Assembly: GCA_943331445.1 (NCBI GenBank)
Contig: CALQLO010000001.1
Span: forward strand, 124,001-188,000
Source: Akkermansia muciniphila
GTDB taxonomy: Bacteria; Verrucomicrobiota; Verrucomicrobiia; Opitutales; UBA953
Length of the DNA stretch: 64,000 nucleotides
Reading direction: 5' to 3'
This document shows, piece after piece, positions 41,156-45,337 of the stretch (the first letter of the stretch is position 1; every line of letters starts with the position of its first letter). The translations under genes were made by a program, and so were the position numbers. The notes beneath the pieces were generated by a model. It was not told where the DNA came from. It did no database searches and worked only from the letters and a program-made list of their open reading frames with translations.

Positions 41156-41292
41156 AAGCAGACAGGGGTCAAATAATGCGGACCCCATTGCGTCGGGCGG
41201 TGTCATAGGCATAACACCAACTGTGACTCGTTGCCCGATTGGGAATCATTTTCGTTTGCCCCGCCCCACTTGACAGACACCCCTTGACAGCC

Positions 41293-43161
41293 GTGGCCCG
41301 TATTTCTCGCAGATCCATCGACGACCTCCGCCAACGAGCGGACATCGTCGCGCTTGCTGGCGATTATACGCAGATGAAGCAGAGGGGTCGCGACTGGTGG
41401 GGGCTCAGCCCGTTTAAGTCAGAGAAAAGTCCGTCTTTCAAAGTGAACCCAGAGACTGGGCTGTGGTATTGCTTCAGCACGCAGCAAGGGGGCGACGCCT
41501 TTAAACTCGTCATGAATCGCGAAGGCCTGGACTTCCCTGAATCCATCGAGCGCGTCGCAACGCGTTTCGGCTTTAAGCTCGAGTATGAGAGCGGTGGCGA
41601 CGGCAAGAGCGAGAAGTCATTTCGCGGTCAACTGCTGGAAATCCACGAACTCGTCGCCGACTATTGGCGGCGCTGCTTCCTCGAAGACCCCGTCCACGGC
41701 GAGTGGATCCGAGACTACTGGACCGAGAAGCGCAAGTTCACCCTCGAGGTGGCGGATTCATTCGGCATCGGCTTCGCCCCCGTCGACGATTCTAAGCTCA
41801 TCCCGGGGCTCATTAAGAAAGGCTACACGCGAGAAGCCTTGGCTCAGACGGGATTATTCTTCGGGGTTGATCGTGTGCCCGATCCGCTGCGCTGGCGCTG
41901 TCGTTTCCGTGGTAGATTGATTATTCCCATCCGCGACATTCAGGGGCGAGTCATCGCCTTTACGGCCCGCACACTCGACATCACCCCGCAGGATGACCCC
42001 TCCCGCGAAGCCAAGTACGTCAACTCACCGGAAACTGAACTGTTCAAGAAATCACGGACCGTCTTTAATATCGATCGAGCGCGCATGACCCGCAAGGACA
42101 CCGAGCCTTTTGTCCTCGTCGAAGGTCAGTTGGACGCCATCCGCTGCCATTCCGCCGGCATCCCTGGTGCCATCGCCGCCCAAGGCACCGCGGTCACGGA
42201 AGAGCACATGCAGCAGCTCCGACGCTTCACCCAGCGCTTGCTCGTCTTTTTGGATGCGGATGCCGCTGGCCAGAAAGCCGCCCTCCGGCTGCTGCCCATC
42301 GGCCTGCGCGAAGGTCTGGATATCCGCTTCCTCTCGCTGCCCGGAGGCAAGGATCCCGATGAGTATTTCTCGACCACCGATGCCTCGCAGTGGGCCGCCC
42401 TTGCGGCCGGCGCCCGGAGTGCGATGCAGTTTTGCGTGCAATCCCTCGTGCCGGAAGGTTCGGCCAGCCTTCCCTTGGCGCGCCGCCTGACCTTACTGGA
42501 AGCCCTCTTCCCGATTGTCGAACAAGCCGGTGCTGAAGAAATCGTCCGCGAGGCCCTGAATGAGGCCGCCCGCCATGCTGGTATCGGCATCCGCGAGATG
42601 CACATGGCCTATGAACGCCATCGGGCCCAAACCTTGGCGCAACGCCCAGCCGCCCAGCTCTCGGGGGGCGAACAGCCGCCTGCCCAGCCGGTTGTCAAGG
42701 GGGGGGGCTTGACAACGCCTGAGGAGGATTTGATACTGTTTCTCCTGCGGCATGATTCCTTCTTCGTTACCATGGCACAGTCGCTGCCGCTCGAATGGAT
42801 CGACCAGTCTGGTCGCGGAGGCTCACTCCTGATGATGCTTCTCAATGAGGCGGCCAACGGCCATTTCAATGGGCTCCGCGAGGCACTGAATGCCCTCGAC
42901 GATGATTTGCGCACGGAAGCTGCCCGCCTTTCCGCGGAAGGCTTCTCGGGCAGCGAAGAAGAGAAGGAAATCCTACCAAGGGCCAACACCATCCTGAAGG
43001 CCTTCCATTCTCGCCATGTGCAGGCACTGACCCGGAGCCTGGATTCGCGCATTGCCTCCACCCCGGTGGATGATGTCGCCCGCCTTAATGCATTGCAGTC
43101 GGAGAAGATCGCCCTCCGCAAATCGCACGCCCTTCCGCCAATCCTAACCGCGATTCCCTAA
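41293..43161 (+). CDS. dnaG: DNA primase DnaG with degraded zinc-binding domain
   Basis: 622 residues from GTG 41293 ([23 protein letters not shown]). It makes RNA primers for replication. The N-terminal domain aligns with the CHC2 zinc ribbon, but ligands are lost: the usual CPFH is SPFK (Ser39, Lys42) and CFGC is CFST (Cys60, Thr63). The TOPRIM catalytic core is intact, with LVEGQLDAI and [13 protein letters not shown]. The C-terminal helicase-binding region (about 480-620) is typical in length. It precedes rpoD by 10 bases, the classic macromolecular synthesis order. Confidence 0.92.
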
Positions 43162-43171
43162 TTTCACACAC

Positions 43172-45337
43172 ATGCCCGAAAAGAACTCCAAGAAATCCAC
43201 CGCCAAATCCGCCAAGCCAGCTGCTAAGGCCGTCGCCAAGGCCGCCCAGAAGGCGCCGGCCAAGCCGATAACGAAGCCGGCCGCCAAAGCAGCGACCCCC
43301 ATCAAGGTGGTCGCGGCCAAGAGCGCCCCGGTCAAGCAAGCCCCCAAAGTCGCGGTCGCGAAAATCGTCCCGGTACCTGCGGGGAAAGCACCGGCTAAAG
43401 CCATCGCGGCTACCACCAAGGCCAACGCCCCGGCAGCAAAGGCTCCCAGCGCGGCATCGAAACCCGCAGTCATCTCCAAGCTGCCGGCCGGAAAGCCCGC
43501 TGGACCAGCCAAGCAACTGACCACCCCGGCGGTTAGCCATCAGATTAACGAGAAAGTCCAACAGCTCGTGGTGCTCTCTAAGAAGAACGGTTACGTCACG
43601 GTCCAGAATATCAACGAAATCATCCCGGACAGCGCCACCGACCCAGAGTTGATCGAGAACATCATGAACATCCTCGACAACCTGGACATCAAGCTCCTGG
43701 ACGAAGATGAAGTCGAAACGTACCGCAAGAAGGTCGAAGATTCCGAAGAAGAAGCTGCGCGCACCGTCCCGGCGGACGCCCCTTACGATCCTTTCAATGT
43801 CTACTTGAAGCAGATGGGCCACAAGCCTCTGCTCACGCGCGAACAAGAAGTCGAAATCTCTAAGCGCATCGAAGACGCCGAGCTTCGCGCCCAGGACTTC
43901 CTCTTCTCCTGCTGGCTCACCCTGCCCTATCAGCTCGACCTCGCCCTCAAGGTCCTCCGCAAGGAAGAGCGCTTCGACAAGGTGGTCATTGATAAGAAGG
44001 TCGAATCCCGTGATGCCTATTACAAGATGCTCCCCAAGGCCACGGAAGAGTGTTCCAAACTTAAGGCCAAGCTGGACAAGGCCTGGCAGAAGTATCTCGA
44101 CGAAACGGATGAGTCCAAGAAGCCGAAAGCCCGCGAGGCCCACCGCAAGCTTGAGACCACCCCCAAGGAAGGCGCCAAAGACATCCTCCGGAAGTTCTGC
44201 TTCAAGATGAAGTTGTTCGAAGAATGGTTGGAATTGCCCGACATCAAGAGCGACATCGACGACGCCCGAAAACTCATCGAGCCCACCATCGTCGCGCGCG
44301 GCCCGGTCCGCGCCAAACTGGCGAGCAAGCCCGAGGTTTCTGCCTCCCGAACCCGCGAAATCGAGCTCCGCTGGCGCCTCACGCCGACCGAGCTCCTGCA
44401 CCTCTCCCGTAATGTGCGCAAGCACCTCGATGAGGCCCAACGCGCCAAAACGGAGATGGTTGAACACAACCTCCGCCTCGTGATCTCGATCGCCAAGAAG
44501 TACCAGAACCGCGGGCTACTCTTCACTGACCTCATCCAGGAAGGCAACATGGGCCTCGTGAAGGCCGTCGAGAAATTCGAGTACCGCCGCGGCTACAAGT
44601 TCTCCACATACGCCACCTGGTGGATCCGCCAGGCCATCACGCGCTCCATCGCTGACCAGGCCCGCACCATCCGTATTCCGGTACACATGATCGAGACCCT
44701 CAATAAGGTCATGCAGGTCCAGAAGCAGCTCACCCAGGAGCTCGGCCACGAACCGACCGCTGAGGAAGTCGCTAACGAAATGAACATGGCGATCGATCGC
44801 GTGCAGCAAATCATGAAGATGGCGCAACAGCCTATCTCCCTCCAGTCGCCTGTGGGCGATGGCGAAGACACCTCGCTCGGCGATTTCATTGAAGATAAGT
44901 CGGCCGAAAACCCTTCGGACACTGCCTCGACGCGCCTCTTGCGCGAAAAGATCGACTTCGTCCTGCGTTCGCTCGCCGAACGCGAAAAGGAAGTCCTCAT
45001 CCTCCGCTTCGGTCTGCTTGATGGCGTCCAGCGCACGCTCGAAGAAGTTGGCCGCCACTTCAAGGTCACCCGCGAACGTATCCGCCAAATTGAAGCCAAG
45101 GCCCTCCGCAAGATGCGTCACCCGACGCGCATGCGTCAGTTGCAAGGCATGTTCGAAGGAGAGCTCGACACTTCCGGCCCAGGCTTTGACCAGTTCATTT
45201 CCGAAGAAGACAAGGCCGAGCAAACCCCCGGCCCCCTCTCTTCTGGCGGACTCTCTGGTGTACTGCCCCCCAACTCGGCCTTGGCTGCGTTCATCGGTCG
45301 CCCACCTGAAGGCCCAGGCAATTCTAACCGCGAGTGA
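43172..45337 (+). CDS. rpoD: Primary sigma-70 factor RpoD with Lys/Ala-rich N-terminal extension
   Basis: 721 residues. The first 120 are almost only Lys, Ala, Pro and Val, in histone-H1-like repeats ([27 protein letters not shown]). Region 1.1 follows (about 121-190), then region 1.2 ([11 protein letters not shown], about 203), region 2 (about 428-505, with [20 protein letters not shown] and [17 protein letters not shown]), region 3, and region 4 (about 590-655, with [20 protein letters not shown]). A 65-residue C-terminal tail is Gly/Pro-rich. It directs RNA polymerase to housekeeping promoters. It follows dnaG closely and overlaps a lipoprotein gene by 4 bases (GTGA). Confidence 0.97.

Follow-up and report, generated by a model that had tools for sequence, protein, structure and literature searches.

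The dnaG gene described here is, as predicted from its sequence, that of the cell's replicative (housekeeping) primase. We propose, with a probability of about 0.78, that it encodes a replicative DnaG whose N-terminal domain, of the zinc-ribbon type, has been converted to a stable, metal-free and putatively functional template-recognition form. The features on which this reading is based are collected in Table 1, with positions given in the window, that is, the whole stretch of 64,000 nucleotides that was analysed.

Table 1. The dnaG gene, its parts and its downstream neighbour, in window positions.
Feature	Position	Strand	Description
dnaG	41293..43161	+	622 aa, GTG start; sole DnaG primase gene detected in the genome
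PF01807 N-terminal zinc-ribbon-type domain	41293..41586	+	residues 1-98; metal ligands gone
SPFK replacing CPFH	41407..41418	+	residues 39-42; Ser39 and Lys42 stand at ligand positions 1 and 2
CFST replacing CFGC	41470..41481	+	residues 60-63; Cys60 retained, Gly62 replaced by Ser, ligand 4 replaced by Thr63
Catalytic core	41707..42366	+	DNAG_N residues 139-263, Toprim residues 274-358; acidic active-site residues intact
rpoD, housekeeping sigma factor	43172..45337	+	immediately downstream of dnaG (dnaG-rpoD gene order)

The longest open reading frame of dnaG spans 41239..43161 (+), within which the GTG at 41293 is the likely natural start. The protein scored 93.8 bits with PF01807, 93.2 with DNAG_N and 66.3 with Toprim_2, and reached 342.7 bits with the dnaG equivalog TIGR01391, for which the curated cut-off is 283.6. 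The EGxxD and DxD columns of the Toprim domain were invariant in an alignment of 61 primases (A2), so that the DnaG active site is present and the core is intact, as originally predicted. The assignment as housekeeping primase was likewise upheld, the gene being the only dnaG found and adjoining rpoD. A second, normal DnaG had been named as a finding that would overturn the original prediction, and this possibility was rejected, since a single PF01807 match was obtained from the genome. As that assembly is 94.8% complete, a second copy could have been overlooked there, but it is excluded in the complete genomes of metal-free relatives. Additional PF01807 matches in relatives (L115-L122) were mobile-element-type or distant proteins, some of them metal-free as well. 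In metal-free hosts, primases of the mobile-element type, 800-1000 aa long, also carried the metal-free motif STCS (L115 in genome G083 and L116 in G026).

When the sequence was aligned without gaps to 1d0q, a zinc domain of known structure (E 7.6e-23), residues Ser39, Lys42, Cys60 and Thr63 fell on the Cys-His-Cys-Cys ligands, confirming the claim that three of the four ligands are lost and that Cys60 alone is left. The knuckle glycine of CFGC was also replaced, by Ser62. The four CHC2 ligands are therefore incomplete in this DnaG, and no substitutes for them were found. Migration of the ligands to neighbouring Cys or His residues, the other outcome that would have spoken against the prediction, was rejected because no other column of the domain had gained a Cys or His when columns were compared across five groups of phyla. 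The loss is not an assembly error, as the identical SPFK...CFST was present in every DnaG read from the genus. Cys60 itself is unlikely to be an important relict ligand, since other metal-free primases have Asp at this position.

The same change was found far beyond the genus. Within the order, SPFx...CxS(S/T) was present in the family's other genus and in fifteen further families, and in one family even Cys60 was replaced, by Asp. Just one sampled family of the order (about 14 sampled genera) kept CHCC. All other families of the phylum that were read had CHCC, except for two metal-free families elsewhere in the class. A scan for the metal-free motif was run over genome_contigs (84,980 species); among the matches listed were Alphaproteobacteria (SAR11, Caulobacter, Methylobacterium, Bradyrhizobium and others), Chlorobium, Corynebacterium and Patescibacteria, together with one MAG each of Bdellovibrionales, Bacteroidia and Gammaproteobacteria. 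Surveys performed without motif selection recovered a metal-free DnaG in 30 of 30 Corynebacterium, 7 of 56 Alphaproteobacteria (plus Caulobacter, which served as the centre), 13 of 40 genomes from the phylum of Chlorobium and 6 of 54 Patescibacteria. Sampled Mycobacteriales outside Corynebacterium retained the zinc ligands. The metal-free gene was the sole PF01807 gene in most metal-free genomes tested. Many phage primases were metal-free too. Among the phage primase domains taken from viral contigs (L131-L210), this state was common and Cys60 was often Asp (DFSSG), and a subgroup with DHGTGEGG retained Gly at position 62.

Cellular primases fell into two discrete states, CHCC with Gly62 and S-x-(C/D)-(S/T) with Ser62. 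CHCC was found at 224 loci and S-x-(C/D)-(S/T) at 236, a ratio without meaning because about half of the metal-free loci were picked by motif; the lack of intermediates in the unselected surveys is meaningful. No half-way state occurred among the approximately 460 cellular loci, and the three remaining loci encode one distant protein and two proteins whose knuckle is interrupted by an insertion. Positions 39, 42, 62 and 63 changed consistently within each of the five groups of phyla: Cys39 became Ser in all, His42 became Lys, Thr or Asn, Gly62 became Ser in 89-100%, and Cys63 became Ser or Thr in all. Cys60 was retained in most metal-free primases, with Asp in its place in several lineages and phages. 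The genus studied here and all Corynebacterium had Lys at ligand position 42.

We assessed how often the state had changed on a tree of 122 DnaGs from which the zinc domain was excluded. The sequences grouped by phylum, and Corynebacterium was nested within zinc-bearing Mycobacteriales with starred (well-supported) branches. The states required 19 changes on the whole tree, and the starred branches alone forced at least 12; as the tree was a quick one under a simple model, 12 is the figure to use. A restriction of the ligand loss to this protein or its clade was not borne out, as the two states were exchanged at least 12 times and the present case is one of these switches. Constraining the metal-free members of the order to one clade was not rejected (p-AU 0.375), and the CHCC family of the order fits either retention or regain of the ligands. 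Because the same package of replacements recurs in bacteria and phages that are not related, it seems possible to rebuild an essential textbook domain so that it works metal-free.

Repeated point substitution would not be needed if the metal-free domain had a single origin, perhaps in phages, from which recombination carried it into the dnaG genes of hosts. The abundance of S-x-(C/D)-(S/T) in phage primases and the metal-free state of mobile-type primases in metal-free hosts (L115, L116) are compatible with such a history. However, the catalytic cores group by phylum, and the residues flanking the motifs resemble those of zinc-bearing sisters of the same order (for example, PDKGFYKCFSSGKAGD versus DKGFYKCFGCGKAGD), and we consider a single origin unlikely.

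In metal-free groups, as in most zinc groups, the N-terminal domain was more conserved than the catalytic core. Identities were 0.94 for the domain and 0.83 for the core within the genus, and 0.54 and 0.43, respectively, within the order, and the margin resembled that of zinc relatives. The G, SPF, E, PS and G positions of the metal-free domain were invariant across several phyla. Conservation of this kind argues against the domain being a relict devoid of template recognition, attached to a core that primes with little sequence specificity and is helped by DnaB or SSB. There is a precedent for such decay in metazoan Twinkle, whose primase-type domain lost the same cysteines along with priming (PMC3610141). 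The related domain of Twinkle matched the fold of our domain model with a Z of 7.4. Twinkle differs in that further primase motifs are lost, whereas the present core retains its priming motifs and the protein is the only DnaG found, and we regard the relict explanation as quite improbable.

The sequence of the metal-free domain also calls for the canonical fold. An AlphaFold2 model generated from metal-free relatives only had the zinc-ribbon fold, with a pLDDT of about 95 around the site, and superposed on 1d0q with a Z of 15.7 (98 residues, 1.7 A) and on 2au3 with a Z of 15.1; as AlphaFold models no metal, these values speak for the fold that the sequence demands and not for its stability. 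The full-length AlphaFold2 model was likewise confident. Together, the PF01807 score and the match of the predicted model to 1d0q place the domain among DnaG zinc-ribbon folds. The original prediction had offered two options, that the domain folds without metal or that another factor replaces it. The first is the better supported, though still putative, on the basis of the model from metal-free relatives, the conservation, and the same replacements in unrelated lineages. A site that still binds metal through Cys60 or Asp60 and Ser/Thr oxygens, or one in which a partner protein completes the zinc, is very unlikely despite the frequent retention of Cys60, as Lys at position 42 is unlike a metal site, Cys60 gives way to Asp in several lineages and phages, and there is no new conserved Cys or His.

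Zinc-bearing primases rely on the metal to tie the CPFH and CFGC knuckles together. Under the proposed switch to a metal-free domain, this function would pass to a package of changes in which Ser replaces both Cys39 and Gly62, a polar or basic residue replaces His42, and Ser or Thr replaces Cys63, with Cys60 kept or replaced by Asp. The knuckles would then be held together by packing and by hydrogen bonds among the small polar side chains at positions 39, 42, 60, 62 and 63, a network deduced from residue types alone, and the domain would still present the template to the catalytic core without zinc. The change of Gly62 along with the ligands fits this proposal, as a knuckle geometry requiring glycine would no longer apply. 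The absence of intermediates points to incomplete packages being unfit.

A review describes the ligands of the zinc domain in DnaG as highly conserved and assigns the reading of the template to this domain (PMC6163395). Canonical zinc DnaG, represented by 1d0q of B. stearothermophilus and 2au3 of Aquifex aeolicus, has in common with the present protein its domain order, predicted fold, catalytic residues and rpoD neighbour, but carries Cys-His-Cys-Cys and the knuckle Gly where Ser-Lys-Cys-Thr and Ser are found here. Discrete zinc (C+) and zinc-free (C-) versions scattered over bacteria occur in ribosomal proteins L31, L33, L36 and others, where they are often paralogues in one genome under the control of Zur. 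DnaG is unlike these proteins in that a genome mostly carries only one dnaG, of one type or the other. Glutamyl-tRNA synthetase is likewise an essential enzyme that has lost a zinc motif in scattered fashion, and a zinc-free version of its putative zinc-binding domain was functional in a chimera (PMC4381286). It is a different protein with a different fold, and some bacteria have deleted the domain entirely, which was not seen in DnaG here.

No description of a metal-free DnaG was found in the open-access literature; subscription journals lay mostly outside the search, and an earlier mention is possible. If essential primases of several phyla do work zinc-free, the domain cannot owe its function to zinc. 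The role of the metal can be tested directly on natural pairs of zinc and zinc-free sisters, such as Corynebacterium against its relatives in the Mycobacteriales, or the CHCC family against its sisters within the order. The finding also bears on the DnaG zinc site as a drug target and on the automatic annotation of such proteins as zinc-binding.

A second zinc site was altered in the same lineage. The C4 zinc finger of the NAD+ DNA ligase LigA was gone in the genus and in its sister genus, as well as in four more families of the order (L648 on contig C81 of the genome studied, L649, L647, L650, L635, L621, L620, L632, L638, L630, L639 and L634). Its place was taken by LxxLGIxAER...EAAWR, a conserved segment. 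The finger-less LigA still had the KxDG active site and its remaining domains, and Pfam returned no match to PF03119. Ten sampled families combined a metal-free DnaG with a LigA that retains the finger. Likewise, the Alphaproteobacteria, Corynebacterium and Chlorobium whose DnaG is metal-free have kept the LigA finger, so that the two losses are not strictly linked and a general coupling between them is unsupported. Abandonment of zinc throughout the genome was rejected as well, since UvrA and DnaJ retain their zinc motifs and the cell thus still uses structural zinc. It is conceivable, if doubtful, that bacteria and phages rid their lagging-strand machinery of zinc, repeatedly and selectively, through the primase package and, in this lineage, the rebuilt LigA finger; this could alter the choice of start sites or give independence from zinc supply or from oxidative damage to cysteines.

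In two Mycobacteriales genomes (L552 and L553), the PF01807 match was split into two halves within one open reading frame of about 995 aa. The break falls directly after the third zinc ligand and resembles an intein or insertion in the zinc knuckle of DnaG.
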